Source: Bacteriovoracaceae bacterium (lineage in GTDB: Bacteria; Bdellovibrionota; Bacteriovoracia; Bacteriovoracales; Bacteriovoracaceae). Taken from it: a stretch of 64,000 nt of DNA. Of the stretch, positions 24,562 to 58,872 are shown one piece after another; the first letter of the stretch is position 1, and each line of letters starts with the position of its first letter. The notes below the pieces were generated by a model. The model did no database searches. It was not told where the DNA came from and saw only the letters and a program-made list of their open reading frames with translations. The position numbers and the translations under genes are program-made. The DNA is taken from positions 1-64,000 of the forward strand of contig CANFHC010000005.1 of assembly GCA_947446575.1 (NCBI GenBank), given 5' to 3'.

Positions 24562-25098
24562 ATGACTCAAAATATGAAACTTGTATTAGAAAATAGCTTG
24601 CAAGTCTTTTTCTTTGACCATCTTCAGGAAGTCAATAAAAAATTACTTAATCCCTTAAGCCAAGAAACCATTTTTTACTCTAGTATTGTCATGGATAATT
24701 TCGGTGAATCCTCAAAGTTATTTGAGCAAGTTGATAACCGAGTGCGTGAAAAAATTCTTGGTATAAAACTTATGGAGTCATCTCAACTTCCTAGAGAAAA
24801 GCAAAAAAAAGCATTAAAAGACATTGCGGAAACTTCTCTATTTATATGTGGGTATTTTGCGGATTCGCTTAACAGAAAAATAGTCGACGTGAGATATTAT
24901 GAAGACCTCGGCAAAATAGCTTACACAAGATTAAATAATTATTCTTCAGAAGTTTACGATGTTCCCTCATTTTATAAAATGATGGCAAATAATTTTAGCC
25001 ATGTAACTTTTCTAATGAACTTAGTATCGAAAAAATATTCGGCGGAGAGTGACCCCGCCTTACCTTGGTTGATCTTGCAAGATAGAAAAATCTCTTAA
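24562..25098 (+). CDS. Conserved-looking protein of unknown function
   Basis: 178 residues, largely helical, no signal peptide and no membrane segment. No domain was recognised. The ATG chosen follows GGAGGAATTTTT; an earlier in-frame ATG has no such site. The gene is divergent from the mutase operon and its end overlaps the convergent M16 peptidase gene by 4 nt. Confidence 0.65.
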   Translation: MTQNMKLVLENSLQVFFFDHLQEVNKKLLNPLSQETIFYSSIVMDNFGESSKLFEQVDNRVREKILGIKLMESSQLPREKQKKALKDIAETSLFICGYFADSLNRKIVDVRYYEDLGKIAYTRLNNYSSEVYDVPSFYKMMANNFSHVTFLMNLVSKKYSAESDPALPWLILQDRKIS

Positions 25099-27665
25099 GA
25101 ATTTCCTTCTCGTCCTACTACAATAGTATTCCATTTTTTAGAAAGTACTTTTCTAATATTTTTTTGGAAATCAGTATATTTTAGATCTTCTATTTCTTTA
25201 TTACCCATATAGTAAAAATCTAAACCTTGTGATTGTAAAACAGGGACAGAGTAAATCGAGGCAAAATCTTCATTGGTTTGAACATTGATTAAGTTTTGGC
25301 CTTTAATCATTGTTTTAATTCTGTTGAAATCTTCTTCTGGAAGACCGTTATCTCTAATGTTAGCTATGAGATCTTTAATGGCAGCGATGGCAGGTTTCAC
25401 TTTATCAAATCCCGATGCCATGTAGATTCCAAAGTATCCGCCTTCTATCGCCGAGAAATGAACTGGCTGAGCAGAGTAACATAGACCAAGTCGATCGCGA
25501 ACTTCAACAAATAGGACAGATGATTGACCAGAAAGATGAGAACTTAACATTTTGAGATAAAGATTTTCAGGGGATCCCAATTTTCCGCAAGGGATACCGT
25601 AAAAAATTTGTGTTTGCTCTCGATTAAAAGAAATGAATTTATCTACACCTATGACCGGTTTAAATTTTTTAAATTTCAACGGCACGGATTTTCGAGGAGC
25701 AAGACTATCAAAAAGTGGTTGAAGGGTGGGCATAATTTCTTCAAGATCAGCATCACCACAATAGGTAATTAGAATCTCCTGGTTCTTTATATTTTTTTTA
25801 TGAATATCAGAAAGATTTTTTTGGGTTATAGCCTTAATCGATTTCTCAGTGCCAACTGGATTCAAAGAATATGGATGATTGCTAAAAAAAAGTTCTTGAG
25901 CCTGCTTAAAGCATTGTTTTACAGGATCTTCTTTTTGATTTACCAACACTCTTAAGGAGAGCTGCTTTTCATGATTTAAAAATTTTAATGGCATATCTGG
26001 AGCAATCAGAGCTCCAGAGAAATGGGGGAACAAGTCTTGTAGATTATCGCTCAGTCCATGCATTAATAAACCATAAGCATTTTTACCCGAGAATCCGGAA
26101 ATACTTGAAGATTTTTCTTCCAATGCTTTTTTAATTTTATCATAACTTATTTTATGATGCCCTTTCGTGAGCATTGAACTCAGTAAGTGAGAAGCGCCGT
26201 TATTCTTTATACTTTCCTCGGTTAACCCCCCTCGCAAATATGCCTGAAGCACAAAAGTAGGTGTCATGGTATTTTGGCGATAAATGAAAGATACTCCAGG
26301 CTTAACTTTTATTAATTGTACTTGTTGATCAAACTTAGAATTTTCAATTTTCAATTTTGTTTTAATCCCAGCAGTAAGTGATTTTTTTAAGCTTTTAAGT
26401 TGGCCCTGGAAATTTACAATTTCTTTTTTACATTTCACAAGATCGGCTTCTTTAGGCAATTGCATACTGATGTGGATATCTTTAGAAAATATATTACGAA
26501 GGGCAATGTTGACATGTTTAGGACTGGTCGACTTAATTCGGTCGATAAATTCTTCTTCACATTTAACGTCCCCGTTTTGAGCATAGCTGTGACCAAGGGA
26601 AAAAGAAAAAGATTCAATTGATTCCATTTCATAGATTTTTGAAGAGAGATATTGATTCTTTATTTTTTGAACTTCATCATTGTCTAATCCCTTTTCAAGT
26701 GCGAATTCGATAGTAGCAATAAATTTTTTAAGTAGTTCTCCTAGGTTTTTATGAGGGAAAACTAATCTGATAAAATGAGCACCACCCTTTGTCATAAACA
26801 TCGTTGATGCGGAAGCCACATTGGCTAATGTTTTTTCTAAAACCAGTGCATTGTAGAGTCTAGATGTTTCTCCAAATCCCAAACAATTTACTGCTAAATC
26901 TTCTCCGGCAGCTTCTTTATCAGAGTATTGAGGAGCCTTTATGATCATTGTAAGAGTGGCCATTCCAACTTCTTTTTGATGAATATCTAAAGTTGGGTGC
27001 TCTTTTAATTCAAATTCAGGAAACGAACTCACGGGTCCTTTGGGAAGTGAATATTTTTCTATTGTGCTAATGTGGCTTTCTTTTTCAGAAATGTCTCCAG
27101 CAACTATTAAAAGTGCATTCGAGAGATTGTAAAAATTATTTCTAAAGGAATGTAATTGCTTTTGCGAGAAGTTTTTTATCGTATCTTCACGTCCAAGAAT
27201 TTGATGAGAATAACTTCCTTTGAATGCCGAAGCTTGTAGCTTGGCAAATGCAAATTGGCTAGGGCTATCAATTGATCTTCTAAATTCTTCAAATACAACA
27301 TCTCGCTCTGGAAGGAGATCTTCTTGCTTGAACAAAGGATTCGCTACCATGTCCATTAGTATATTTATTGAATCTTGTAATTTTGTATTTGGTGTATTGA
27401 TGTAGTAGCAAGTGTAATCAAACGAAGTAAAAGCGTTGATCTCACCACCGAATGTTTCAACTTCATGAGCGATCTTTGCGCCGGGACGAGTATCGGTCCC
27501 TTTAAAAAACATGTGCTCTAAAAAATGGGCGATTCCCTCATGATCTTCTTTTTCAAGTGCACTTCCGGCCCTGAACCATATTTGTACAGTCGCAGCAGTT
27601 GATCCAGGAGAGTGGACAAAAAGCGTCTTTAAGTTGTTTTTTAAGCTGAGTAATTCATATTGCAT
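25095..27665 (-). CDS. M16 family zinc metallopeptidase, two-domain (pitrilysin/PqqL-like)
   Basis: 856 residues. The inverted zinc motif HFLEH lies at 47-51 (HxxEH), with a downstream glutamate in VFEEFRRSI expected as third ligand. The second half is the inactive M16 domain with the RDRLGLCYSAQP segment that helps bind substrate. Such enzymes clip peptides held in a closed chamber. No signal peptide is seen, so it is probably cytoplasmic. The ATG with AAGGA 8 nt upstream is preferred over an ATG 17 codons earlier. It lies about 1.3 kb from the peptide-modification locus with hemW between; a role in leader removal is possible but unsupported. Confidence 0.9.
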   Translation of the reverse strand: MQYELLSLKNNLKTLFVHSPGSTAATVQIWFRAGSALEKEDHEGIAHFLEHMFFKGTDTRPGAKIAHEVETFGGEINAFTSFDYTCYYINTPNTKLQDSINILMDMVANPLFKQEDLLPERDVVFEEFRRSIDSPSQFAFAKLQASAFKGSYSHQILGREDTIKNFSQKQLHSFRNNFYNLSNALLIVAGDISEKESHISTIEKYSLPKGPVSSFPEFELKEHPTLDIHQKEVGMATLTMIIKAPQYSDKEAAGEDLAVNCLGFGETSRLYNALVLEKTLANVASASTMFMTKGGAHFIRLVFPHKNLGELLKKFIATIEFALEKGLDNDEVQKIKNQYLSSKIYEMESIESFSFSLGHSYAQNGDVKCEEEFIDRIKSTSPKHVNIALRNIFSKDIHISMQLPKEADLVKCKKEIVNFQGQLKSLKKSLTAGIKTKLKIENSKFDQQVQLIKVKPGVSFIYRQNTMTPTFVLQAYLRGGLTEESIKNNGASHLLSSMLTKGHHKISYDKIKKALEEKSSSISGFSGKNAYGLLMHGLSDNLQDLFPHFSGALIAPDMPLKFLNHEKQLSLRVLVNQKEDPVKQCFKQAQELFFSNHPYSLNPVGTEKSIKAITQKNLSDIHKKNIKNQEILITYCGDADLEEIMPTLQPLFDSLAPRKSVPLKFKKFKPVIGVDKFISFNREQTQIFYGIPCGKLGSPENLYLKMLSSHLSGQSSVLFVEVRDRLGLCYSAQPVHFSAIEGGYFGIYMASGFDKVKPAIAAIKDLIANIRDNGLPEEDFNRIKTMIKGQNLINVQTNEDFASIYSVPVLQSQGLDFYYMGNKEIEDLKYTDFQKNIRKVLSKKWNTIVVGREGNS

Positions 27666-27770
27666 TTTGTAGTTCCTTAATTTTTTAATGAGATTGAACC
27701 AGTTGATTATAACCAATAATCTTAGCCATTACCTAATAGAATTTCTCTATAACCTGAAGTAAGTTTAAGC

Positions 27771-28960: not shown

Positions 28961-30682
28961 TTGAGTTGGTTAAGACTGCATGTCTCAAATTTATGTAATT
29001 TTAAATGTCCAAATTGCCATGTTTTTGAACTTGGTGAAAACGATTTACCAAATCGAGTTATGTCGCAAGACATTTTTGATAAATCAATAGAAGTTTTTAT
29101 CGATTCTTTAAATCATCTTGCTCAAGAGAAAGTTACGATCTCTATTTACGGTGGAGAAACTTTAGCAAATAAAAAAGTCATAAAACAGGGCATCGAAAAG
29201 TTTGGAGCTAGCTATAGAGGAATAGAAATAACATGGGTGATAAATACAAATGGTAGTTTGTTAAAAGAGGAAGATGTCCATTTTTTCAAAGAACAAAATG
29301 TTGAAATACATATAAGTGTTGATGGAAAAGAAGAAGTTCATAATATTTCGAGACCTACCCATAAAGGAAAGGGTACTTTTCATATGGTTGAACCAGCTTT
29401 AAATTTAATAAAAATGCATAAAGTACCATCACAAATAAACTCTTACATGATGCCTTCAAATTATAACCACTTGAAAGATTTAGTCGATATTGCTGAGAAG
29501 TACAATATTTCAAAAATTTATCTCGATCAATTTTATAACTTAGATATGATCACTCACAAAGTAGGAATGGAAAAATACATGTCGGTTTATCTCTATGGAT
29601 TAAAAAAAGGAATTCTTATTAATGGTCCATGGAATAGAGTTATCAGAAATTATCAAAACAATGAGTCGAGAGAGTTTGTTTTAAGAAAATCATTGTCCCT
29701 AGATGTTAACATTGATGGCTCTTGCTATTTTCCCGTTTACAGTGAATCTAAAGCAATGGGTTTTCATATTGATTCATTCTCAAAGTTTATTAAACGGGGT
29801 GGATGGAATGAAATAACGGAAAAAACAATTACTAGAAACATTTCTAAATGCAACGAGTGTTCCATTCAAAATTATTGTAATGGTGTCGCTATTGAGCAAG
29901 TTCATTATCATATTGGTTTAGAGGCTGACACAAAAGTTAGTTGTGATTTTTTTCGTGATTGGTGCCAGTTTTTAATGAGGCCAGTTTATTTCAAGAGACA
30001 CGAACTTGTTGATTATGTTTCTATGATTGAGTTGAGTCTTGTTGAACCAATGATTAAAAAAATTAATGAGCATATTAATTTACTAGAAAAGAAGCTCTGG
30101 CCTCTTAATCACAAAGTCGTTGTAAATTTCCTTGAGCATCACGAAGAAATACTTATGGCAAGCAAGATGGAAAGTCTGCCTAATTGGACAACTGCAATTA
30201 CTAAAGATTCAACTCTATATTTAAGAGGGACTATCTTAACACCGGCAATAATTCATGAACTTAGTCATATTTTTCTTAACCAAGAGAATGTAAAAGCTCC
30301 CAAGTGGTTTCTTGAAGGTGTTTGCGAGTGGATACAAAATAAAAAGATAGATCCCAAATTACTTTCAAAATCTTTAAAAGAAAAAAATTTATTTTCTTTA
30401 ATCGAAAAAGCAGAGGGGAATGATATTGTTTTAATAGATCATGATGACCAAAAGCCTGGAAGAAACTCATTATATGTTCAAGCTCATGCATTTGTAGATT
30501 TTCTTGAAAAAATAATGGGAAAGGAGCTTTTAAAGTTAATGATATTGGAAACTTCTCAAGCTAGTTTAACCTCAGTCTTAGAATCTTTTACGGGCTTAAG
30601 TCTCATTGAGATGATAAATAATTTTTTAGAATCGAGTTATTTTATAACTAAAGTGAGCAGAGGTACTCTTGTCAAAGTTTAA
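28961..30682 (+). CDS. Radical SAM/SPASM protein fused to a gluzincin-type metallopeptidase domain
   Basis: 573 residues with a TTG start preceded by AGGA. The radical SAM motif CNFKCPNC (cysteines 12, 16, 19) is at the extreme N-terminus, followed by IYGGET and a WVINTNGSLL strand. A SPASM-like auxiliary cluster region appears at CNECSIQNYC. The C-terminal ~150 residues look like the Peptidase_MA_2 family: HELSH at 432-436, then WFLEGVCEW with candidate third-ligand glutamates 452 and 456, and YVQAHAFVDFLEK. Radical SAM/SPASM enzymes often modify ribosomal peptides, and a peptidase domain could remove the leader; that link is inference. It overlaps the next radical SAM gene by 14 nt and converges on the PqqD operon. 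Confidence 0.85.
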   Translation: MSWLRLHVSNLCNFKCPNCHVFELGENDLPNRVMSQDIFDKSIEVFIDSLNHLAQEKVTISIYGGETLANKKVIKQGIEKFGASYRGIEITWVINTNGSLLKEEDVHFFKEQNVEIHISVDGKEEVHNISRPTHKGKGTFHMVEPALNLIKMHKVPSQINSYMMPSNYNHLKDLVDIAEKYNISKIYLDQFYNLDMITHKVGMEKYMSVYLYGLKKGILINGPWNRVIRNYQNNESREFVLRKSLSLDVNIDGSCYFPVYSESKAMGFHIDSFSKFIKRGGWNEITEKTITRNISKCNECSIQNYCNGVAIEQVHYHIGLEADTKVSCDFFRDWCQFLMRPVYFKRHELVDYVSMIELSLVEPMIKKINEHINLLEKKLWPLNHKVVVNFLEHHEEILMASKMESLPNWTTAITKDSTLYLRGTILTPAIIHELSHIFLNQENVKAPKWFLEGVCEWIQNKKIDPKLLSKSLKEKNLFSLIEKAEGNDIVLIDHDDQKPGRNSLYVQAHAFVDFLEKIMGKELLKLMILETSQASLTSVLESFTGLSLIEMINNFLESSYFITKVSRGTLVKV

Positions 30683-32006
30683 ATTATATTTGCATGGTGA
30701 AACTGGAACAAGAATAGCTTTATATGATCCTTATATATCTCATTTGGTTTGGGCAGATACAAACGAAGATGTTATTTCCAGAGAGAATGGCGCTCAGGAA
30801 AAATGGGAAAAAGTTTTACCAACGTCTCCAACCAATCCAGCAGGGAAAAGTAAAAATTTAAAAAAAATAAAAATTCAAATGGGTTTTGCGTGTAATTACT
30901 CATGCACTTATTGCAGCCAGAATAATCTAAGATCTCCAGCAGAGGAAAGTTTAAAAGTAGCGATGGAAAAACTTCCAAATTTTTTAGCAAATATGCATAA
31001 ATGGTTTGATGGTGGAAGTAATGGAAGGGGCGAGGGGGTATTTCTTGAGTTTTGGGGGGGGGAGACTTTGCTTTATTGGCCCGCCATAACAGTTTTGGCA
31101 ACAAAACTTAGAGAGATTTATCCAGATATCCACTTGGCTTTATTCACCAATGGTTCACTCGTAAAAAAAGAAATGGTAGATTTTGCACTTTTGATGCGAA
31201 TACATTTTATTGTTTCTCATGATGGTCCAACTTTTACTGAAGATAGGGCAAAAGATCCTTTTGATATTCCGTCGCAAGCTGAAAATTTACATTACCTTTT
31301 TAAAGTTTTAAATCCAGAAAAACTTATTTCATTTAATGCAACAGTATCACCGAAAAATTATTCATTATTAGCGATCAGAAAATATATTGCAGAGAAGTTG
31401 GGAGTTGGAACTGAGAAATTGGTTGTCACTTACGATCTTGCTACACCTTATGATTTGCCAGGCTTAAACTACGTGACAAAAAAAGATAAACGCCGAGATT
31501 TAATCAACAACTTGTTTAAAGAAATGATTCAATTTTATCCATTTGATATGTCTCTGGGAATGACAGATGTCTTTATTCATGATTTTTTTGAATCATTAAA
31601 GTTTGGACGAACGGGAGAATTTGTTGGCCAGAAGTGCACAATGGATTTGCCAAGTTCATTGGCGCTAGATCTAGATGGGAATGTTTTAACGTGCCAAAAT
31701 GTTACGGCAAAAGGTGGACATAAAATTGGGCATATTGATTCTTATGATGAAGTAAAACTTACAACTGCTTATCACTGGAGCCAACGAAGTGAATGTACCA
31801 AATGTCCGGTAGTTCAAATCTGTAAGGGATCGTGTATGTTTCTTACTGATAATTTATGGCAAGCTGCCTGTGATCAACATTTTACTTGGGGGTTAGCTTA
31901 TTTAGCTTTGGCCCTATATCTTCAGACGGATAAAGTTTTAACTAAGATTGAGGGTGAGTTTATTCGCAACTCTAATGATACTGTAATTGATGTTTTATAT
32001 TCCTAA
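30669..32006 (+). CDS. Radical SAM/SPASM peptide-maturase-like protein
   Basis: 445 residues; TTG start with AGAGG upstream, inside the end of the previous gene. An N-terminal ~65-residue region precedes the cluster motif FACNYSCTYCSQ (cysteines 75, 79, 82), then FWGGETLLYW. The C-terminal SPASM domain has CTMD, CQNV and CTKCPVVQICKGSCMF plus a later cysteine. The layout matches anSME/sactipeptide-type maturases; the product bond cannot be read from sequence. The codons for the WGGE motif form a run of nine G residues. Its end overlaps the convergent oxygenase gene by 12 nt. Confidence 0.88.
   Translation: MSKFKLYLHGETGTRIALYDPYISHLVWADTNEDVISRENGAQEKWEKVLPTSPTNPAGKSKNLKKIKIQMGFACNYSCTYCSQNNLRSPAEESLKVAMEKLPNFLANMHKWFDGGSNGRGEGVFLEFWGGETLLYWPAITVLATKLREIYPDIHLALFTNGSLVKKEMVDFALLMRIHFIVSHDGPTFTEDRAKDPFDIPSQAENLHYLFKVLNPEKLISFNATVSPKNYSLLAIRKYIAEKLGVGTEKLVVTYDLATPYDLPGLNYVTKKDKRRDLINNLFKEMIQFYPFDMSLGMTDVFIHDFFESLKFGRTGEFVGQKCTMDLPSSLALDLDGNVLTCQNVTAKGGHKIGHIDSYDEVKLTTAYHWSQRSECTKCPVVQICKGSCMFLTDNLWQAACDQHFTWGLAYLALALYLQTDKVLTKIEGEFIRNSNDTVIDVLYS
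31054..31062 (+). repeat. G9 homopolymer inside the radical SAM gene
   Basis: Nine consecutive G residues encode the WGGE motif of the enzyme. Runs of this length are slippage-prone in other bacteria and would put the gene out of frame. Confidence 0.9.
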
Positions 32007-32591
32007 CTTTTGACTGACATCTGCAATCAAATGGTATCTATTTTTATCAGATAAATTTAAGGCCCTGTGAAGTTGATTTATCTCAATTAGATAAATCGAA
32101 CCATCAGCTTTTAAGTGATGTCTTTCGTGTTGATATTCAAAAAAGCAATTTTCATTTGTGACAATTGGTATGTGCAATCTGAATGCTCTTTGTCCCTTGA
32201 TGATTTCGCCATCCTGGTGCCAATAAGAAGTACTCTCTGGGTGCGGTTTCAAGAGAGCAATTCTGAGGCGAGTAAGCGAAAGTGTAGGAAAAGATTGTTT
32301 GATAGATATAAGCAGTTCTTCAATGTATTCATTATAAATAGGAGTAGGTTTATCGAACTTTGTCGTTGAAAAAAATTCTTTTAATTTATTTTTTTCATCT
32401 TCTGAAATATTGGAATCGTTGATTTTTTCACCCGTTTGCCAACCATCATTTATTTCGCCTGTTGAAGAGGTGATTGACCATCCTCCCCATGGGCCATTTT
32501 TCTTCATAAAAGGGGGATTAGTTTTTTGAACATAATCCAAATATGAAGTAAGTTTGGAAATATCAATAGTTAAATCTAGTTTAATAATCAT
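31995..32591 (-). CDS. Aspartyl/asparaginyl beta-hydroxylase-like iron oxygenase
   Basis: 198 residues. The facial triad is visible as SYWHQDGE (HxD) and a distal QLHRALN histidine, with a following arginine in NRYHLIAD that would hold 2-oxoglutarate. This is the arrangement of the Asp/Arg-hydroxylase cupin fold. A peptide or amino-acid side chain is the likely substrate. It is the last gene of the leftward peptide operon, directly abutting the preceding gene. Confidence 0.78.
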   Translation of the reverse strand: MIIKLDLTIDISKLTSYLDYVQKTNPPFMKKNGPWGGWSITSSTGEINDGWQTGEKINDSNISEDEKNKLKEFFSTTKFDKPTPIYNEYIEELLISIKQSFPTLSLTRLRIALLKPHPESTSYWHQDGEIIKGQRAFRLHIPIVTNENCFFEYQHERHHLKADGSIYLIEINQLHRALNLSDKNRYHLIADVSQKLGI

Positions 32592-33149
32592 TTATTTCAT
32601 CTTATAAAGTTTAATGCCATGTTGGAAAGAGAGAGCAAGTACTTTTTCCAAAGAAAGATTATCTTGAATAACCATTGTACTTGGAAATTTTGAAACTAGT
32701 TGCGCACCTAGCGATAAGAATATGTTAAGAACTACACACTCTAGATTGAGTTGAGGATTTGATTTTATTTCAATTTTCCAATCCACTAAATTGGACTTTT
32801 TAAAATAGGTGATAAAGTCAAGTTCTTGAATACCATTTTCTTGCAAATGATCCAAGATGGCTGCTTTTGAAGGACCATTTAAGTCTGCAACATAATAAAA
32901 GCAATTTTTAGAATTAAATCTTATTGATAATAAATGATCTAGCGAATCATGCGAGAAATCAATTAGGTAGATTAATTTATTCTTTTTTTGTTGGTGAATT
33001 GTATTCGTTGTGAATAATTCAAAATAATATTCATGTTTTTGAGAAAGAATTTTTTTTAAATCACCAATGTCATATTTTATTTTACGAACGTCAGTCGCAG
33101 TAAGCATATCAAGCTTTAGATTGAAGTTTTCCTTAATTAAAAACTTCAT
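32592..33149 (-). CDS. Unknown protein of the peptide operon
   Basis: 185 residues, mixed alpha/beta, no signal peptide or membrane segment and no recognised motif. It overlaps the upstream glycosyltransferase gene by 4 nt (ATGA) and abuts the next, so it is co-translated with modifying enzymes. Function not recognised. Confidence 0.75.
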   Translation of the reverse strand: MKFLIKENFNLKLDMLTATDVRKIKYDIGDLKKILSQKHEYYFELFTTNTIHQQKKNKLIYLIDFSHDSLDHLLSIRFNSKNCFYYVADLNGPSKAAILDHLQENGIQELDFITYFKKSNLVDWKIEIKSNPQLNLECVVLNIFLSLGAQLVSKFPSTMVIQDNLSLEKVLALSFQHGIKLYKMK

Positions 33150-34375
33150 ATCTTATTCTTCCAAAAAGATTGATAAAAGTGCTCATATAATTCTAGTGCA
33201 GGATAATTGTCATTTAACATAAGCAGTGAGAGTGAAATGAATTCTTCATGGAAACCATGAAAGGGCTCGATTGGTTCTACTAAAAATTTAGCATATTGAT
33301 TTGAGATGTTATCAAGAGAGTATTTCGTTTTCATTTTGCGAGAAGTAGATTTTGAAATGCGCTTGTTTATGATAGAGCTTGTTATTTTTTCTTGAATTTC
33401 CTTTTCATTTAAAATGAGGGTGCATTCGCTGTATTCAAGATCAACATGTTGAATCATTTTATCTTTTGCATTTTGATTCTGTAAATCTCGATACCCCCCC
33501 CAGTTTGTTAAAACTACAGGAACTCCAGAGCAAAGGGCCTCTATAGGTGAATAACCAAAATCTTCGTCATGGTAAATGCTTAAGCTGATGAAAAGGTCAC
33601 TTCCCGCGTAGGCCTTTTTTAAATGTTGATGATTGATCCGTGGAAAGATTTTCACATCATCATCATTTTTAATGGAAGATTGTAATAGTTGAAAATATTC
33701 TCCAGGTTTAAATTTTTTTTCGTAAAAAGTTGGCATTTCGAATTCATCAACATTTCCAAAAATAAATAACTTTAGGTTCACTGTTGATTCGAGCGTTTTT
33801 TTAAGATTATTAAAGGTATCTATTAGTAAAAGGATATTCTTTTGAGGTGATATTCTTCCAGTATAGATGAGAGCAAAGTCCTTTTTCACAAGCCCGTGAT
33901 TTTTACGAAATGTTGAACGAGAATTTTTTTTGATATTAAAGGTCTGTTGCTTAATGGGAAAAGGACACAGTTGGCAGTTGCTTTTCGAGATGAGACTTTT
34001 ACCAATCAATACTTGATAACATTCAGAAGCTGCAAAAAACAAAACTTTTTTTCCAATTAGGCAGTCGTTGAGCCTAACGTAAAACGAAGATTTTCTAACA
34101 TAGTCTCCAAAGATATAAAAAATGAGCGACGTTTTGACCTCGTTAGTTTTTTCAATGAGCAGTTTTAGGCTGGGATCTATCAACACCATGGGGTGAACAA
34201 TTATAATAAAATCTAAATTCTGGATGGAGCTTGGTGAAAGCAATATTCTACTAATATTCGAGATGGTAAGAAAAATATTTGGAATCTTTTTATAAGCAGC
34301 GATAATATTCTTTGTGATATGGGTAACACTATCTTGTTCGTTAAATGATGAAGTAACAATGACAACATTTTTCAT
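33146..34375 (-). CDS. GT4-family glycosyltransferase of the peptide operon
   Basis: 409 residues, GT-B fold. The donor-binding half shows LIYTGRISPQKNILLLIDTF and the EX7E-type segment HDEDFGYSPIEALCSGVPVVLTNWGGY. It shares this motif block with two glycosyltransferases of the rightward operon (34-41 kb), so the three form a local family. It could glycosylate a peptide, a lipid or a surface sugar; the context with PqqD and oxygenases makes a peptide possible. A run of eight G codes for the NWGGY part. Confidence 0.85.
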   Translation of the reverse strand: MKNVVIVTSSFNEQDSVTHITKNIIAAYKKIPNIFLTISNISRILLSPSSIQNLDFIIIVHPMVLIDPSLKLLIEKTNEVKTSLIFYIFGDYVRKSSFYVRLNDCLIGKKVLFFAASECYQVLIGKSLISKSNCQLCPFPIKQQTFNIKKNSRSTFRKNHGLVKKDFALIYTGRISPQKNILLLIDTFNNLKKTLESTVNLKLFIFGNVDEFEMPTFYEKKFKPGEYFQLLQSSIKNDDDVKIFPRINHQHLKKAYAGSDLFISLSIYHDEDFGYSPIEALCSGVPVVLTNWGGYRDLQNQNAKDKMIQHVDLEYSECTLILNEKEIQEKITSSIINKRISKSTSRKMKTKYSLDNISNQYAKFLVEPIEPFHGFHEEFISLSLLMLNDNYPALELYEHFYQSFWKNKI

Positions 34376-34376
34376 T

Positions 34377-35261
34377 TTACTTACTAATTAGAGGACTTAT
34401 GTGTCCTTCTTGAAACATGTCAAAGGGATGAACTTCACCGTAGAACTCATTAGAGTGCCATGAGTTCGATTCAGAATGATAATCAAACCAAGGAGAGACA
34501 CCACAAATAATGTTAATGCGATCTAGGTTTGAAATTTTCTTACAAAAAGGTCGATGGTACTTTTGTGTATCATAAACATAAGCTTTGCCCGGGACCAGTT
34601 CAATTTCTGAAATCTTTGCAACTGAGTCTACTTCGTCTAAAAATTGAATGACATAATTTTCACTAGATTGAACTGGGATATTTATTCTTAGATTTATAAA
34701 AATAGATTCATCTTGATGCCAAAGATATTTAATATTTGTACTTTCAATTTCGTTTGCCTTAATCACTGAAATCCGAGATCTAATAATAGTTCTCTCGAAT
34801 GAATTAAGTAGATTGTTAAGCAGACCTACCTCGCTTATTGGAGTCCGCTTATTGAAAGAATACGTGTCCGCATAAGAGTTTTTTTCAGCTTCTATATTTT
34901 CATAATCACTCGAGTTTCCAGCACTGTATTTACTGGATCCTAGGCTGCTTTGGTGTGGATCATTAGAAAGGCTGTCAATAGATTGAGGGTTCCAGGTGAG
35001 GGCCGTTGAAAGGTAACTTGTAAACTGAGACACCCGTCCTTTATAGTTAAAATAAAAAGATCCATATTGTTTTAAAGATTCTCTAACTTCATTAAGAAGT
35101 TCGTTGCAATCGAAATTTAAAGTGGCAGATAAATAATCTGGTTTAGAACTTGAGCCAAGATTCAAAATATGCGTTCTGATATCTGTAGAATTGAGAATGT
35201 ATTTTTCAACAGTGCAATTTTGAGGAACGTCGCTTAGCTTAATGATCCATTTTTTTTTCAT
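34377..35261 (-). CDS. 2-oxoglutarate/Fe(II)-dioxygenase-like protein
   Basis: 294 residues. The likely iron ligands are in LWHQDES (HxD) and KYHRPFCKK (distal histidine), with an arginine in LDRINIICG behind them. A region of about 120 residues precedes this core and has no recognised domain. Hydroxylation of a peptide residue is the most likely role in this operon, by inference. It sits between the PqqD-like gene and the glycosyltransferase. Confidence 0.72.
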   Translation of the reverse strand: MKKKWIIKLSDVPQNCTVEKYILNSTDIRTHILNLGSSSKPDYLSATLNFDCNELLNEVRESLKQYGSFYFNYKGRVSQFTSYLSTALTWNPQSIDSLSNDPHQSSLGSSKYSAGNSSDYENIEAEKNSYADTYSFNKRTPISEVGLLNNLLNSFERTIIRSRISVIKANEIESTNIKYLWHQDESIFINLRINIPVQSSENYVIQFLDEVDSVAKISEIELVPGKAYVYDTQKYHRPFCKKISNLDRINIICGVSPWFDYHSESNSWHSNEFYGEVHPFDMFQEGHISPLISK

Positions 35262-35276
35262 AATACTTATGAAAAG

Positions 35277-35585
35277 TTAATTATCTTTTGAAGGCAATTG
35301 GGGTTCTTCAAAAAAGATTAATAAGCGGTTTTTTTCCAAGTCTTCAATGAGATTAGAAATCTCATTTTCATACTCACCATTTTGAATTTTCTGTTCTGCT
35401 TCAAAAGAGGAGATGACTTCAGAAAGTTTATGTTCTCCAGTAAACTTCTTGCAAAGGATCGCAGCAAAGCCATCAATAGCAAAACCTTTATTTGTCGCCG
35501 TGTTGAAAAGAAAAAATTCTTCCCTGTTATTTGGACTATTAAAAAATTGAGCTGATATTTTTGGAAATAAATTGCCTTGTTTCAT
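35277..35585 (-). CDS. PqqD-like peptide recognition protein (RRE domain)
   Basis: 102 residues. The segment FNTATNKGFAIDGFAAILCKKFTGEHKLSEVI matches the PqqD pattern, a winged-helix-like domain that binds precursor leaders and presents them to radical SAM or other enzymes. The neighbouring 53-codon gene, 23 nt upstream, is the natural candidate for its ligand. This is the strongest single sign that the locus makes a modified peptide. Confidence 0.8.
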   Translation of the reverse strand: MKQGNLFPKISAQFFNSPNNREEFFLFNTATNKGFAIDGFAAILCKKFTGEHKLSEVISSFEAEQKIQNGEYENEISNLIEDLEKNRLLIFFEEPQLPSKDN

Positions 35586-35608
35586 AGACTACCTGAATTA
35601 AATTTAGC

Positions 35609-35770
35609 TCAGTAGCAAGCACCTGCACTAACTGGAGAAGAGGGAACGAGAAGACCAATGATTTGAATAGCAGTTAATGGCTTAAGAGAGCCAAAAGACG
35701 GCTTAGAGTCATTGTTAGTATTACTCTTTAAATCATCTTCATCTGAAGAATTGCCATTATTTTCACTCAT
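35609..35770 (-). CDS. Candidate precursor peptide, 53 residues
   Basis: A short gene directly ahead of the PqqD-like gene, with AGAGG about 10 nt before its ATG. The first ~23 residues are hydrophilic (MSENNGNSSDEDDLK...), rich in Ser, Asn and Asp. The rest is hydrophobic (SLKPLTAIQIIGLL) and ends VPSSPVSAGACY, with the only cysteine next to the last residue. A leader-plus-core layout is inferred from this split. There are Ser, Thr, Pro, Cys and Tyr residues that oxygenases, a glycosyltransferase or radical SAM enzymes could modify. No similar peptide is known to me. Confidence 0.68.
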   Translation of the reverse strand: MSENNGNSSDEDDLKSNTNNDSKPSFGSLKPLTAIQIIGLLVPSSPVSAGACY

Positions 35771-35987: not shown

Positions 35988-37340
35988 ATGAAACTGCTTG
36001 TTATTAAAAGCGCGGTTGAGTCAAAGTGGGGTAGTTGTCGGGTTATTTCACCGAATCTCCATCAAGTTTATACAAAATTGGGAACTGATTATGATGTTAG
36101 TTGGTTTGAATTACCAGAAGACATTATGAAAGCAGAGCTCAAATATAACGTGTCTTGCATTGCTGCATTGGTTGACAAAATAGCTACGCTTAATCCAGAT
36201 CGTTTGGTTTTTGTCGATCACTTGCCGCCACCACCTTTGGTTTTGGCGTACCTCTCTATGCAAATTAATTTAAAAAAACTGCCTCCAATAATTTTCCATC
36301 TCTATGGTGATTTTACATATTTTTCAAAAGAGTGGCTTTATTTCAGCGAAGTAATGCAGGGTCATGAAGTAACTTTTATAACTGCTTCAGTGTCCCAACA
36401 AAAATTAGTCGAAGAGTTTTTGGTGGTAAAAAAAATAGAACCGATTTCAAATATCGAAAAACTTTGTTTTCCAGTAAATTCATCAGAATATTTTTTCAAT
36501 GTTGATGAACGAAATATCTTTAGAAAAGAAATGAAAATTTCTGAGAATGATTTTGTAATTTTATATTCTGGAAGAATTAGTTTACAAAAAAATGTGGATG
36601 TATTGTTGAGAGAGTTTTTAAAATTAAAGAGTACTTCTCGCAAAATTCACTTATGGGTTGTAGGTGCTTTTGACGATGTAGGGGCAGATTTTTTAGGATA
36701 TGAATCCTACCCTGGATATATGTTTTCAAAGTTTCAATCTCTTTTGGATGATGCAAATCCAGAGCAAAGGAGCAGGATTAATTTATTTGGTTTAAAGGAC
36801 AAAAATGAGTTAAGAAAAATAAAAGCAGGGGCTGATTTTTTTACGAGTTTTAGTCTCTACCATGATGAGGATTATGGTATGTCTCCAGCGGAGGCACTGG
36901 CCACTGGAATCAAATGTATCCTTACTGACTGGGGAGGCTATTCATCATTTGCCAACAAAGATAAATGGCAATGTGATTTACTTTCGGTTGAAATAGGTGA
37001 GTTTGGCCATGAGCTTGTTGTTGAGGATTTTCATAGCGTAATTAGTGAAGTTAGTAATGTAAAAGATGAGGAGTTGGATCGCCAAAAAAGAGCGTTGGCA
37101 TTTATGGATGAATTCTCCATTGATGCGAATGTTAAAAAATTAAAGGACATTTTAAGGAAATCACCAGAAAAGTTTGAAGGTTTTAATTGGAAGTTGGATC
37201 AATTTGCAAATGCCTTAAATCAGAATTGGTCAAAATCAAAGTTTAACAAATTTCTATCTCCCAAAATTCATAGTTATTATTTTACTATTTATAAAAATTA
37301 TATTTCAAAGCTTATTCAGGAAAATAGTCATGAAAATTAA
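35988..37340 (+). CDS. GT4-family glycosyltransferase, module copy 1
   Basis: 450 residues. GT-B glycosyltransferase with ILYSGRISLQKNVDVLLREF and YHDEDYGMSPAEALATG followed by LTDWGGYSSF. It resembles the glycosyltransferase at 40 kb along its whole length and the leftward one at 34 kb in the C-terminal half. Acceptor unknown. It overlaps the following gene of unknown function by 11 nt, a pairing that is repeated downstream. Confidence 0.85.
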   Translation: MKLLVIKSAVESKWGSCRVISPNLHQVYTKLGTDYDVSWFELPEDIMKAELKYNVSCIAALVDKIATLNPDRLVFVDHLPPPPLVLAYLSMQINLKKLPPIIFHLYGDFTYFSKEWLYFSEVMQGHEVTFITASVSQQKLVEEFLVVKKIEPISNIEKLCFPVNSSEYFFNVDERNIFRKEMKISENDFVILYSGRISLQKNVDVLLREFLKLKSTSRKIHLWVVGAFDDVGADFLGYESYPGYMFSKFQSLLDDANPEQRSRINLFGLKDKNELRKIKAGADFFTSFSLYHDEDYGMSPAEALATGIKCILTDWGGYSSFANKDKWQCDLLSVEIGEFGHELVVEDFHSVISEVSNVKDEELDRQKRALAFMDEFSIDANVKKLKDILRKSPEKFEGFNWKLDQFANALNQNWSKSKFNKFLSPKIHSYYFTIYKNYISKLIQENSHEN

Positions 37341-38337
37341 AGAACCGAACGAAATTATTCAATGGAGTTATGACTTTATTCAAAGCTTTTATTTGAATAA
37401 TAGTGAGACTCAAACAGATACGGAAAGAATGTATGCGCACTATTTAGCGCCCTTTGCAGAAAAATATTATTCTCCGCTTAATCCATTTTTAATCTTTGGA
37501 GGTGCTGACATATCACATTTGATGAAAAAAGATGTGTGGTTATTAAGAGATGGGCTAATACCTTTGAGTTTTTTCTTTAAGGATGCACCGCTAGACTTAA
37601 TGGATGGGCAAAGAAAATTTCTTGTACATAAAGACTTTTGGTTTTTAATTCCTCCTGAATGGCAAAAAAGTGTTTTGTTTTACGACATGATTCCATCAAC
37701 TTTTTTTGGAAACGGAATTGTTCCTGAAAAAATGGTATTGACGGGAATTGCCAACGACACTTTGGCCGACATTGACGAATTTGTACAAGCGATTACAGAT
37801 TTGGCAGCTGCATTTACTGAAAAAGAAATAAAATCCATGCAAATAATAGCTTACTTTCCCAATAAAAGGGCCGATTTATGGGGGAAATGGCAAGATGAAA
37901 ATATTTTCAAGTACGCTAAGTTAATTTTCAAAAATTTAAAATTAGATATCGAATTTCCGGAATGGGATATTCTTCAATCATCAATGGATTATCAAAACAC
38001 TTTATATTATGAAATTAATAGTGGAGCAATCGTTAAGGACACTTCTGTTCAACAAATGTTCTTATCAAGAGGAGCGGGATTATTAAAAAAGAAGAACGAA
38101 ACCACTTCCTTCAAGATGATAAAAAAGCATCAGATCAGTTTATACCATAATGTTGAAATTTATGAGTTCGATTTTAAAAATAGTTTACCCTACGAAAATC
38201 CTTTAAAAGACGATCTAATGCCATATTTTAAAAAAATAATAGAAAAAGGAACTGCTCCTAGAGTTCTCTCAGAGGGATGGGAGAAATGGTACGGTACTTA
38301 TATAAAAAAATACTATAAAGCTCGGAAAATTATTTAA
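37330..38337 (+). CDS. Unknown protein family X, copy 1
   Basis: 335 residues, no signal peptide or membrane segment, rich in aromatic residues. It shares blocks with the later copy: YSPLNPFLIFGG, RDGLIPLSFFF, VAYFP-like NKRADLWG, LSRGAGLL and the C-terminal WEKWYGTYIKKYYK. The basic, aromatic tail may contact a membrane or nucleic acid, but this is a guess. Always paired with a GT4 gene here, so the two may act as one unit. No known domain was recognised. Confidence 0.75.
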   Translation: MKIKEPNEIIQWSYDFIQSFYLNNSETQTDTERMYAHYLAPFAEKYYSPLNPFLIFGGADISHLMKKDVWLLRDGLIPLSFFFKDAPLDLMDGQRKFLVHKDFWFLIPPEWQKSVLFYDMIPSTFFGNGIVPEKMVLTGIANDTLADIDEFVQAITDLAAAFTEKEIKSMQIIAYFPNKRADLWGKWQDENIFKYAKLIFKNLKLDIEFPEWDILQSSMDYQNTLYYEINSGAIVKDTSVQQMFLSRGAGLLKKKNETTSFKMIKKHQISLYHNVEIYEFDFKNSLPYENPLKDDLMPYFKKIIEKGTAPRVLSEGWEKWYGTYIKKYYKARKII

Positions 38338-38460: not shown

Positions 38461-38565
38461 ACCAAAGGAATGGCGAAGCTTCTGGCCCTTGGGTCTTGTG
38501 TAGGTCAGACAAGTTTTCCAAGTGAGCTTGTTTTAATAAATGATGGCACAGGTGTTAAAGGATAT

Positions 38566-39975
38566 ATGGAAAAAGATTCTATAATTACGGAATACTTAAA
38601 TACAAAAGAAAAACTAAATTCAGTTTCAGATTCATTTTGTCTAGCAAAATGGTTTCAAGTTACACTCCATTTACAAAATGGTCAAAATCATTCATGTCAT
38701 CATCCCAATACCCACCAGGCGACTATGGAAGAATTGCAAAAATCGCCAGACGCGCTTCATAATACAAAATTTAAAAAAAATATCCGGAAGATGATGTTAA
38801 ATGGTGTTCGTCCAAAAGAGTGTGAGTATTGTTGGAAAATTGAAGATACTCCTGGAGAGCATTACAGTGATCGACATGTGAAAAGTAATGATGACTGGGC
38901 AAAACCTTTTTTTGAAGAGGCGATTGCTGCGGGTTACAAGGAGAATATAAATCCAAAATACTTGGAAGTGAGTTTTAGTAATTCGTGCAATTTAAAATGT
39001 TCATATTGTCTTCCGCATATCTCTAGTAGTTGGATGAAAGAATTGAAACAATTTGGAAATTATCCCACTCAGTCAATCCACCATGCTATGCCAGCCGAGG
39101 AGAAGATGCCAATTACAGATTCTAGCTTGAATCCTTATGTAAAAGCATTCTGGGAGTGGTGGCCTTCTTTGTATAAAGATTTACGTGTCTTGAGAGTCAC
39201 GGGTGGAGAGCCACTCTTGGTACCAGATACATTTAAAATATTAGATTATGTTTCACAAAATCCAAATAAAGATCTGAATCTTGCCATTAATACAAATTTA
39301 AGTGTTGATCAAAAATTTGTTGAAAAAGCAGTTGATAAAATACACCAAATACAAAATTCTGGTCACCTCAGAGATATAACAATTTATACAAGTTTAGATA
39401 CCTGGGGTAAACAAGCCGAGTATATTCGCTTTGGCTTAAACATGGATTTATTTCTAAAAAATCTAACCCATTTGCTCGTCAATGCCCCCCAAGTGAAAAT
39501 TTCATTTATGTGCACTTATAACTTACTTTCTGTTGCAAACTTTCGAACTTTCCTTGAATTTATTTTAGATTTAAAAGATAAATATAGAACGCATTATGAC
39601 CCAAACCAGTCCCGGATTATTTTAGATATTTCATATTTAAAAGATCCTCATTTTATGTGTGCAAATTTGGTAGACGCTACTCTCTTAGAAAGAATGAAGT
39701 CGGATTTAAATTTCATGAAGGCCAATTCAAAAAAGAACAAAAAATTTGGCGATGTAGGATTTGATGAGTATGAGCTAAATAAGATGGAAAGACTTGTTGG
39801 GTTTTCATCACTGGGAGTTAGCGAAAAATTTAAAATGTTACAGCTTTCAGATTTATTTAAATTTTTTAACGAGTACGATAAAAGACGTGGAACAAATTTT
39901 GAGGAAATATTTCCTGAGTATAGTCATCTTTGGAGTATCGGTAAGATCTTAACACTCAGTGAGAGTAACTTGTGA
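38566..39975 (+). CDS. Radical SAM protein with N-terminal CHHP region (twitch/SPASM-like)
   Basis: 469 residues from this ATG, which has AAAGGA just ahead; an in-frame ATG at 38470 would add 32 residues but has no usable site. The front shows FCLAKWFQVTLHLQNG then CHHP, and CEYCWKIED, a pattern of radical SAM families that begin with FCxxPW. The cluster motif CNLKCSYC follows at about 141-148, then VTGGEPLL. These proteins often act beside glycosyltransferases on unknown substrates. It lies between the two GT4/X modules and overlaps the next glycosyltransferase gene (GTGA). Confidence 0.8.
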   Translation: MEKDSIITEYLNTKEKLNSVSDSFCLAKWFQVTLHLQNGQNHSCHHPNTHQATMEELQKSPDALHNTKFKKNIRKMMLNGVRPKECEYCWKIEDTPGEHYSDRHVKSNDDWAKPFFEEAIAAGYKENINPKYLEVSFSNSCNLKCSYCLPHISSSWMKELKQFGNYPTQSIHHAMPAEEKMPITDSSLNPYVKAFWEWWPSLYKDLRVLRVTGGEPLLVPDTFKILDYVSQNPNKDLNLAINTNLSVDQKFVEKAVDKIHQIQNSGHLRDITIYTSLDTWGKQAEYIRFGLNMDLFLKNLTHLLVNAPQVKISFMCTYNLLSVANFRTFLEFILDLKDKYRTHYDPNQSRIILDISYLKDPHFMCANLVDATLLERMKSDLNFMKANSKKNKKFGDVGFDEYELNKMERLVGFSSLGVSEKFKMLQLSDLFKFFNEYDKRRGTNFEEIFPEYSHLWSIGKILTLSESNL

Positions 39976-41297
39976 AGCGCTTACTGGTTATTCGATCCAA
40001 TAAAGAATCTTCTTGGGGGAGTTGTAAAGTTATTTCTCCAAATTTGCAAGAGTGCTACAGACGCTTAAAGGGATCAACTTGCGATGTTCGATTTTTTGAA
40101 ATAGATAAAGATTTTTTAAGGGAAGATGCGCTCAGAGATGATATTTTTATTATTAGTCTTGCGAGTGAGATAAAAGATTTTGATCCAACAGAATTAGTCT
40201 TTGTGGATCATGTTCCTCACGTAGTCGATCTTTTAAATTTTCTTTCAATTTATATTCCTATTAAAGATATGCCTCCCTTTGTTTTTCACGTTTATGGAGA
40301 TTTTACGTTTTATTCCCAGTCGTGGAGCAATATTAGTGAATCACTCAAGGGGCATTCAGTTAAATTCATAGTGGCTTCTGAGGCACAAGAAAAGATGATT
40401 AAAAGTTTTAGCAACAAAGACACGTGCGTTGAAAGATTTTTATTTCCAGTAGATGAAACTGAATATTATTATGATCACGACGAAAGGGTTAGTACAAGAC
40501 AAGAGGCTGGAGTAAAAGATTATGAAGTTGTAATACTCTATGCTGGACGAATAAGTTTACAAAAAAATGTTGAAAAATTAATCAAAGAATACTCAGAAAT
40601 ATTTTCTACATCAACCTTTCCAACTAAGTTGTGGATCGTTGGTGCTTTTGATGATTTTGGCGCTCCTTTTCAAGGCGTGTTAAATCATGAAGGGTATATG
40701 TTTTCAAAAATAGATCAGGTTATTAATTCTCTTCCTGAAAATGTTGCTGCAAGTATTAAGTTCTGGGGGCATCAACCCAAGCAGGTAATAAGAGAATTGA
40801 ATAATGCATCTGACATGTTTATGAGCTTAAGCTTATATCATGATGAAGACTTTGGAATGTCCCCTGCCGAAGCTCTTGCTTGTGGGGTACCGACTTTATT
40901 GACTGACTGGGGAGGCTATTCGTCTTTTGTCTCCAAAAGATGGTTTTGTAATTTATTACCCATTAAGTTAACTCCTTTTGGGCATGAGCTTATGGTTTCG
41001 CGTGTGTTGGATTTCTATAATTTATATTCTTTGTCTTACATTAATAAAATAGACAGAAAGAGATGGTCCGATGAATTTCTTAAAGAATTTTCAATAAGTG
41101 CCGGCACAGAAAAACTCAAAAAAATTATTGAAAAAGATTTCGAAAAATTTCAAGGATTCAACTGGAGTTTGGAGCATTTTGCAAGAGTTTATTGGTCTGT
41201 AAGTCATGGCAAGGAAATCAATGTCCATTTAACTCCATCAGATGATAATATCTATTTTCACGTTTATAAAAATTATATTTCAGGAAAAGAGACGTAA
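39972..41297 (+). CDS. GT4-family glycosyltransferase, module copy 2
   Basis: 441 residues, GTG start overlapping the previous stop. It is a paralogue of the glycosyltransferase at 36 kb: both start with an (I)RSxxESSWGSC-type segment, and share FVDHxP, FHVYGDFT, AGRISLQKNVEKL, YHDEDFGMSPAEALACG and LTDWGGYSSF. Acceptor unknown. Followed by the second copy of family X. Confidence 0.85.
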   Translation: MKRLLVIRSNKESSWGSCKVISPNLQECYRRLKGSTCDVRFFEIDKDFLREDALRDDIFIISLASEIKDFDPTELVFVDHVPHVVDLLNFLSIYIPIKDMPPFVFHVYGDFTFYSQSWSNISESLKGHSVKFIVASEAQEKMIKSFSNKDTCVERFLFPVDETEYYYDHDERVSTRQEAGVKDYEVVILYAGRISLQKNVEKLIKEYSEIFSTSTFPTKLWIVGAFDDFGAPFQGVLNHEGYMFSKIDQVINSLPENVAASIKFWGHQPKQVIRELNNASDMFMSLSLYHDEDFGMSPAEALACGVPTLLTDWGGYSSFVSKRWFCNLLPIKLTPFGHELMVSRVLDFYNLYSLSYINKIDRKRWSDEFLKEFSISAGTEKLKKIIEKDFEKFQGFNWSLEHFARVYWSVSHGKEINVHLTPSDDNIYFHVYKNYISGKET

Positions 41298-41314
41298 GTT
41301 AGTTGGGAAGGGAT

Positions 41315-42340
41315 ATGAACGAAAGATATGATCACGCTCAGTGGGTATACGACCTCATAAAAAATGCTTATTTAAACAAGTCTGATGAATTAAATGATAA
41401 AGATAATTTATATTTAAATTATCTTTATCCCTTTTCTGAAGTTGTTTATAGTCCACACAATTCAATGATGCTTTTTGGGGGGCACTCATTTGAAAATGTT
41501 TTGGATAAAACGGAGGTATTAGCTCGAGATGGATTAATTCCTTTAACTATTTTTTTTAGAGAAGTTGAACCATCGGAAATATCCAACCAAATATTTATTC
41601 CAAAAGATTTATGGTTTATCGTACCTGTCAGATGGAGAGAGAAAGTAAAGTTCTATGAAGTTAAAGCTCACTCTGTTTATAGTTCAACTAATCTTCCCAA
41701 AAAAATATTTATTAGTGGAATTTTAAATTCAACCCTAGCTGATCCAGATGAATTTGAACAAAACCTTATTCAACTTTCGGAATCTATTGGTTCTAGCAAT
41801 ATCAAGAATATTGAAGTTGTCGCCTATTTTCCAGATAAGAGAAATGATCTCTGGGGCTCTTGGGAAGAAGAAAACGTTTTGAAATTTTCAGCATTAATTT
41901 TTAAACATTTAAAAAATGATGTAAAAACGCCGGCCTGGAAAAATCTGAAAGTGGAGACAAGTTTTCGCGATTGCCTTTATCATGAAGTGAATACAGGTAT
42001 TTTTATAAAGGATAGTTTTCTAAGCCATTTTACTCTTTCACGAGGTGCGGGACTCCTTGATTACTCAAGCATAGTGCCTGCTGATGAACGATTTCGATTA
42101 ATTTCAGAGACAAGACTTTCTTTGTATCATAGTTATTGCTTTTACGATTTCGACTATAGTGATGTGGTTGGATTTGATGACCCATTATTATCAAAGCATG
42201 CAAGATATTTTAAGCGTATATCTGATTTTCAAAATAAAGGGATTTGCTTAAATTATGACTGGGAAAAATGGTATGCTAGTTACATTAGAAAATTTTATAA
42301 ATTGAGAAAAAAGGGAAGCAGTAGTTTGTTTAACTCATAA
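41315..42340 (+). CDS. Unknown protein family X, copy 2
   Basis: 341 residues from the ATG that follows GGGAAGGGAT; a TTG four codons earlier is in frame but overlaps that site. Clear paralogue of the protein at 37-38 kb, sharing RDGLIPLTIFF, the ISGILNSTLADPDEFEQ block, YFPDKRNDLWGSW, TLSRGAGLLD and WEKWYASYIRKFYKLRK. Together with the preceding GT4 it repeats the module found upstream. Function not recognised. Confidence 0.75.
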   Translation: MNERYDHAQWVYDLIKNAYLNKSDELNDKDNLYLNYLYPFSEVVYSPHNSMMLFGGHSFENVLDKTEVLARDGLIPLTIFFREVEPSEISNQIFIPKDLWFIVPVRWREKVKFYEVKAHSVYSSTNLPKKIFISGILNSTLADPDEFEQNLIQLSESIGSSNIKNIEVVAYFPDKRNDLWGSWEEENVLKFSALIFKHLKNDVKTPAWKNLKVETSFRDCLYHEVNTGIFIKDSFLSHFTLSRGAGLLDYSSIVPADERFRLISETRLSLYHSYCFYDFDYSDVVGFDDPLLSKHARYFKRISDFQNKGICLNYDWEKWYASYIRKFYKLRKKGSSSLFNS

Positions 42341-58442: not shown

Positions 58443-58862
58443 ATGTTTAATTTTACAAAACATTTTCCTTATTCTAATAAACGCATTCTGTTTCTTCTGA
58501 GCTGCACTTTGGTTGTAGACTTTTATTTTTGGATTCAATCTCGTTATGCTGCCTTTGATAAAAAAGTGCAAATGGGGGCTAGTACTAGTGCCTCTGGCAT
58601 TGTATTTGACATTGCTTTTCCCTGGCGATGGTATGGAAAATTTGCAGATTTAAATAATGATGGTTGGATAGATCAAAAAAAAATAAGAATTGAAGAAGTT
58701 TATGCTTCTTACTCAAATGTTGCAGTTGCTCTTCAGGGGGATGGAAATTCAAGTATTATTGCTACAGCAGTGAAGCTGGTGAAAATTATTTGGTCTGATG
58801 GCATTTTTCAGATTTTGGATCATATTTTTAAAGCAAATAATCCATACAAAATTGAGCGCTAA
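58443..58862 (+). CDS. Small anchored protein with a Ca-binding-like loop
   Basis: 139 residues with an N-terminal hydrophobic segment (about 12-30). FADLNNDGWID fits a DxNxDGxxD calcium-loop pattern of the kind found in dockerin, thrombospondin type-3 and EF-hand repeats. No other domain. It begins the operon of the two tandem redoxin-monooxygenase genes, 10 nt ahead of the next start. Confidence 0.65.
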   Translation: MFNFTKHFPYSNKRILFLLSCTLVVDFYFWIQSRYAAFDKKVQMGASTSASGIVFDIAFPWRWYGKFADLNNDGWIDQKKIRIEEVYASYSNVAVALQGDGNSSIIATAVKLVKIIWSDGIFQILDHIFKANNPYKIER

Positions 58863-58872
58863 ATTGAGAGTC

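Follow-up and report, generated by a model that had tools for sequence, protein, structure and literature searches.

Comparative analysis of a candidate RiPP pathway in Bacteriovoracaceae with a tyrosine-ending precursor, two predicted oxygenases and partnered GT4 glycosyltransferases

The Bacteriovoracaceae are Bdellovibrio-like bacteria. We analyzed 64,000 nucleotides from one member (GenBank assembly GCA_947446575.1, contig CANFHC010000005.1, positions 1 to 64,000 of the forward strand; here called the window). A preliminary description of this DNA had proposed a new pathway for a ribosomally synthesized and posttranslationally modified peptide (RiPP), built from a 53-residue peptide, a PqqD-like protein, two oxygenases, a family 4 glycosyltransferase (GT4), an "unknown" gene and two radical SAM enzymes. 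From comparison with related genomes, we consider it likely that the locus encodes a dedicated RiPP pathway, which would make a modified small peptide from a constant leader and a variable core. The core genes are as follows.

28961 to 30682, plus strand: radical SAM 1 (PF04055), with a fused HExxH...E domain at the C terminus (residues ~420 to 560)
30669 to 32006, plus strand: radical SAM 2 (PF04055, TIGR04085), with a complete SPASM domain
31995 to 32591, minus strand: OxyA, 198 amino acids, aspartyl/asparaginyl beta-hydroxylase type (WHQD...HR...RYHLI)
32592 to 33149, minus strand: short member of the GT4-partner family, 185 amino acids, function putative
33146 to 34375, minus strand: GT4 glycosyltransferase with an EX7E motif (PF00534, 1.1e-21)
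34377 to 35261, minus strand: OxyB, 294 amino acids, predicted Fe(II)/2-oxoglutarate oxygenase (WHQDE...KYHR...DR) and the system's marker gene
35277 to 35585, minus strand: PqqD-like RiPP recognition element (RRE), 102 amino acids
35609 to 35770, minus strand: precursor peptide, 53 amino acids, with the constant block FGSLKPLTAIQIIGL, a variable core ending ...VPSSPVSAGACY and an invariant C-terminal Tyr

The gene positions, the leftward operon order and the convergence with an overlapping radical SAM pair are as first described. From the peptide to OxyA, the leftward genes are spaced by 23, 15, 1, -4 and 0 bp, an operon-like arrangement; the two radical SAM genes overlap each other by 14 bp, and radical SAM 2 overlaps the convergent OxyA gene by 12 bp. 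Scans for promoters and terminators performed no better than shuffled sequences. The initial list was incomplete, as it lacked two further pairs of GT4 and partner genes and the HExxH domain.

Homologues of the peptide were sought first with the single sequence, which found them in genomes of the same genus, and then with an eight-sequence profile over 129 genomes of the family. The profile search found the peptide encoded in 10 of the 129, with a second copy in one of them (G139). All of the resulting 11 precursors have a hydrophilic front, then a constant block and a variable tail; the tail of the window peptide is hydrophobic. The constant block has the consensus FGxLxPLTxxQIIxL (in full, FG[STG][LI]x[PA][LM]T[AT]xQ[IV][IV]x[LA]). 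All 11 end in Tyr, and the residues before it vary, with tails such as PSSPVSAGACY, KTDVTMAGPCY, GTTGSNSSYGGY and NSDNSAGACACACACGGPCY. After the constant block, the cores read LVPSSPVSAGACY, IVPSSPAGAGACY, ILPSSPVGATACY, IAPSSPAGASNCY, FIKTDVTMAGPCY, LVGTTGSNSSYGGGY, LVGTTGSNSSYGGY, LVGTTSSNSSYGGY, LINSDNSAGACACACGGPCY, LINSDNSAGACACACACGGPCY and LFTGDALGAPCACGPCGGPCACGTPCY. Ratios of nonsynonymous to synonymous polymorphism (pN/pS) in the constant block were 0.25 for the whole set and, for three groups taken separately, 0.17, 0.09 and 0.04; these low values reflect purifying selection and imply that the block is translated and constrained. Conservation across 10 genomes, together with purifying selection on the constant part, puts the peptide gene beyond chance. 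Thus, the short gene with a conserved leader and a variable core that is expected of a RiPP, and that the preliminary description had suggested looking for in relatives, is present. That description had also made its case depend on the peptide lying beside a PqqD-like gene in relatives, and 9 of the 11 precursor genes do adjoin one, which leaves the proposal unrefuted on this point. A weak peptide match in G001 (L016) was set aside, having no cassette around it.

The candidate modifying enzymes co-occur with the precursor, as is general among RiPPs. Full-length OxyB orthologues are found in exactly the same 10 genomes as the peptide, and so are strong matches to the GT4 partner (E below 1e-100), of which noncarriers have only weak ones; six genomes of the same genus have no peptide, OxyB or GT partner. 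For the association of peptide and OxyB, Fisher's test gave p values, uncorrected for relatedness, of 4e-15 over the 129 genomes and 3e-4 within the genus. Nine of the 10 carriers have a PqqD-like protein, and five have OxyA. In G006, the PqqD-like gene lies beside radical SAM 2, 20 kb from the peptide. Orthologues of radical SAM 2 are present in 7/7 genomes with a Cys-containing core and those of radical SAM 1 in 6/7, and both are found in 0/3 genomes with a Cys-free core. The two radical SAM enzymes therefore accompany the Cys-containing variants and not every member of the system. Gene order is rearranged between genomes, and the persistence of the set despite this shuffling speaks for function over simple co-inheritance. 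Several copies adjoin the same hemW, M16 peptidase and MCM genes, as if the locus were an insertion hot spot.

An eleventh genome, G103, has a remote OxyB homologue, without peptide or PqqD; at its locus (L066:1-20000), this homologue lies among several radical SAM/N-Twitch-like genes, with no recognized precursor or PqqD-like gene. In an OxyB alignment search, the public relatives were labeled Bacteriovoracaceae, Bacteriovorax or unclassified Proteobacteria metagenome-assembled genomes (MAGs). A plasmid origin was rejected, as OxyB had zero matches in 72,556 plasmids. Between G012 and G006 (L067 versus L012), the flanking genes are 97 to 99% identical and radical SAM 1 and OxyB 74 to 77%, a contrast that reflects either an exchanged cassette or a MAG bin of mixed origin.

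The PqqD-like identity was upheld. On the window protein itself, PF05402 scores 0.001, below the gathering score, but 6/6 homologues match it over the whole domain (best, 3e-7), and the PDB entry 3g2b (PqqD) matches at 4.6e-5. Among the recognition motifs published for RREs is W/Y/LxxP/L/I (PMC12710340), and the constant block of the precursors has comparable FxxL and LxxL motifs. A second, unrelated PqqD-like protein (PF05402, 2.5e-17) lies beside a radical SAM/SPASM gene in G000 contig C7 (L083:6194-7539), and this pair is probably another peptide modification system.

OxyA matches PF05118 (Asp_Arg_Hydrox) at 3.4e-7 and a beta-hydroxylase structure (PDB 7v4f) at 9.5e-5, and it has the HxD...H and Arg residues of an Fe(II)/2-oxoglutarate oxygenase. 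OxyB has no Pfam match, although its remote homologue in G103 matches PF05118. Its invariant WHxDE ... KxH ... DR residues share the HxD...H...R pattern with OxyA, with which it aligns at 90.5% by hhalign. A 2025 paper, as cited in PMC12636437, reportedly describes an alpha-ketoglutarate enzyme that links Cys to Tyr; since a -Cys-Tyr end is common among the precursors, this is a lead.

Both radical SAM proteins match PF04055 (7.9e-12 and 4.6e-6) and have their best scores against peptide maturases, below every curated maturase cutoff. The claim that both are SPASM proteins stands for radical SAM 2, which has the full cysteine set (TIGR04085, 35.1 bits; cutoff, 27), and only partly for radical SAM 1, which has a partial set (CX2CX5C plus a later C). 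In a moderate-confidence model, the radical SAM part of radical SAM 1 has structural matches to TigE, ChlB and CteB. A further radical SAM protein of the N-Twitch type (38470 to 39975) was considered as a third maturase and kept out of the core set because its close homologues occur in only 6/10 carriers and related copies are present in noncarriers.

The C-terminal domain of radical SAM 1 has HExxH and a later Glu (in EGxCEW), invariant in six orthologues, and gives matches of modest score to PF04450 (6/6), PF13485 (3/6), flagellinolysin and the aminopeptidase 3cia. It is thus a predicted gluzincin metallopeptidase domain, with the downstream glutamate and a peptidase profile, and would probably be the leader peptidase. 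However, Asp and His hydroxylation was demonstrated for a fused radical SAM/HExxH protein that had been annotated as a peptidase (Nat Chem 2024, as cited in PMC12636437), which makes the peptidase reading uncertain. Within a RiPP pathway, the domain might instead be a ChlB-like hydroxylase that uses alpha-ketoglutarate. We regard this as possible but the less favored option, given the peptidase matches, the retained gluzincin glutamate and the lack of a match to any HExxH modification family in NCBIfam. A paralogue of radical SAM 1 at a second locus of G139 (C35; L068:2879-4525), adjoining a very Cys-rich precursor, has lost CX3CX2C and kept HELTH...EGVCEW and the SPASM-type cysteines, and so the predicted peptidase domain seems useful by itself. 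An M16-type peptidase, of the superfamily of PqqF/G, is encoded at 25095 to 27716 in the window and adjoins the cassette in six genomes; it is probably a housekeeping enzyme, with a possible role as leader protease for the cassettes that have no HExxH domain.

Four further genes make up the two added glycosyltransferase pairs.

35988 to 37340, plus strand: second GT4 glycosyltransferase (PF00534, 4.7e-14), divergent from the peptide operon and adjoining a partner gene in G008 too
37330 to 38337, plus strand: GT4-partner protein, 335 amino acids, with strong homologues limited to the 10 peptide-carrying genomes
39972 to 41297, plus strand: third GT4 glycosyltransferase, paired with the following gene
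41303 to 42340, plus strand: GT4-partner protein, 345 amino acids

Each GT4 gene in the region has a partner gene directly downstream. The 185-amino-acid protein, formerly the "unknown" gene, is now placed as a short relative of these partners, since hhalign relates it to 280-amino-acid partners (E, 7e-5; probability, 63%) and the latter to the 335- and 345-amino-acid partners (E, 1e-11). A moderate-confidence model of the 335-amino-acid partner (predicted local distance difference test, 66) gave weak matches to GT-B folds, including GtfA/B (best Foldseek E, 1.1e-3; template modeling score below 0.35). In two genomes, G002 (L013:1808-4132) and G011 (L015:2131-4443), the GT4 and the 345-amino-acid partner appear as a single frame of ~770 amino acids, a natural fusion that would fit a GT4-partner complex.

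Many other glycosyltransferases, a Wzm/Wzt-like ABC transporter and further glycan-type genes surround the cluster, and together with the hydrophobic peptide tail they lend something to another explanation, that a surface polysaccharide island owns the enzymes and that the peptide and PqqD-like genes are passengers or encode a small membrane or secreted protein. We consider this improbable, because peptide, OxyB and GT partner are found together in exactly the same 10 of 129 genomes, including those with a rearranged gene order, and because the maturase-like radical SAM genes track the core cysteines. Nor does the peptide look like a lipoprotein: it has no basic N terminus, and its -AGAC-/-AGPC- does not qualify as a lipobox, since position -3 is never L/V/I and position -1 is P or N in some precursors. 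A lipoprotein assignment, prompted by one weak VlpA match (E, 0.014), was rejected for want of a proper lipobox. Two neighbors were likewise not assigned to the pathway. An HPr-kinase-like gene (44761 to 45789) is not pathway specific, as it occurs in 15/17 genomes, including noncarriers, and the Wzm/Wzt-like pair is at most suggestive as a dedicated exporter, since most genomes have related copies, although the closest ones are in carriers. Elsewhere lie paralogues of ~640 amino acids, four in all (50918 to 52831, 58798 to 60843 and 60872 to 62779 in the window, and L092:1144-3063), with a cytochrome P460 gene among them; both of those scanned have a redoxin part, and one also has weak heme-binding and copper monooxygenase matches.

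No described RiPP class fits this mixture of enzymes, in agreement with the preliminary description. Mycofactocin (MftA to MftF) has the most similar parts list, with a small Tyr-ending precursor, a PqqD-like binder, a radical SAM/SPASM enzyme and a glycosyltransferase, and this likeness in kinds of parts raises the alternative that the pathway, like that of MftA, MftB, MftC and MftF, turns the C-terminal residues into a redox cofactor or signal and does not make a variable-core peptide. That alternative appears remote. The core differs greatly among genomes, whereas the mycofactocin C terminus is extremely conserved (PMC3023750); the MftC model is outside the 25 best for either radical SAM protein, and there is no sequence match at the level of MftC; the glycosyltransferase is a GT4 with a partner and not a GT2 like MftF; two oxygenases of the Fe/2-oxoglutarate type are added; and no gene like MftD or MftE was seen. 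Neither an MftA-type conserved C terminus nor MftC or MftF orthologues were found.

Other systems share single components with the proposed RiPP pathway. The ChlB-type fused radical SAM/HExxH proteins of the FxsB family, which make cyclophane RiPPs, have the same fusion and a structural match in the ChlB radical SAM domain (9gm3), but here the HExxH domain matches peptidase families and no family of their type, the precursor differs, the PqqD-like protein is separate, and the FxsB model TIGR04269 scores 54.3 bits against a cutoff of 370. Ranthipeptide and sactipeptide maturases (PapB, CteB/SCIFF) and TigE give the two radical SAM proteins their closest matches, in both profile and structure comparisons, and Cys-containing cores are a further shared feature; here, however, the precursors are unrelated, oxygenases and glycosyltransferases are added, and the curated cutoffs are not reached (NF047865, 89.2 and 60.7 against 340 bits). 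Discrete RREs of lasso peptide and pyrroloquinoline quinone (PQQ) pathways (PqqD, TfuB1) are also stand-alone 100-amino-acid binders beside a precursor, but this cluster has no lasso cyclase or PQQ genes and another leader motif. GtfA/GtfB, the O-glycosyltransferase of serine-rich-repeat adhesins, likewise pairs a GT4 with a nonclassical partner, but without a significant sequence or fold score here, and the partner family has no Pfam or NCBIfam assignment. A SynChlorMet cassette was rejected (ScmD, 17 against 100 bits). In open-access papers, we found no description of this gene set, which a subscription journal could hold, and no RiPP described in Bacteriovoracaceae.

Some observations weigh against the RiPP reading or parts of it. 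The genomes are related and all metagenome assembled. The three genomes with Cys-free cores seem to form a single group, and the link between radical SAM genes and core cysteines is therefore suggestive and not independent evidence. One carrier (G004, 89% complete) has no detected PqqD, radical SAM 1 or OxyA, so that either the genome is incomplete or those genes are dispensable. Cys-free cassettes have no HExxH domain, and leader removal there would have to occur by other means. Lastly, the cluster lies inside a glycan synthesis island, and some of its glycosyltransferase genes may serve the glycan.

We judge the system to be a putative new RiPP class, in which comparison across genomes supports the pathway well and we infer the individual reactions. 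The PqqD-like protein would grip the constant segment and present the core. In Cys-containing cores, the radical SAM pair would form a bond at Cys, a thioether or carbon cross-link in which the -Cys-Tyr end may take part. A core side chain would be hydroxylated by OxyB, which all carrier genomes have, and the GT4 with its partner would add a sugar to Ser/Thr, Tyr or a new hydroxyl. Radical SAM 1 may cut off the leader with its HExxH domain, hydroxylation being less likely, and export may be via the Wzm/Wzt-like ABC transporter found nearby in most carriers. In its complete form, this proposal is tentative: a new RiPP class whose Tyr-ending core would receive a cross-link at Cys, perhaps the one in the Cys-Tyr end, from the radical SAM pair, a hydroxyl from OxyB and an O-linked sugar from a two-component GT4, with radical cross-linking and leader cutting combined in one chain.

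The family itself offers natural pairings of precursor and enzyme set, namely, Cys-free cores without the radical SAM pair, Cys-containing cores with it, and a paralogue with HExxH but without the radical SAM cysteines, which allow direct tests of what each enzyme does. If the proposal is true, it would provide two new tools for peptide modification: a radical SAM enzyme joined to a probable leader peptidase in one protein, and a GT4 that acts on a small peptide together with an unassigned partner.

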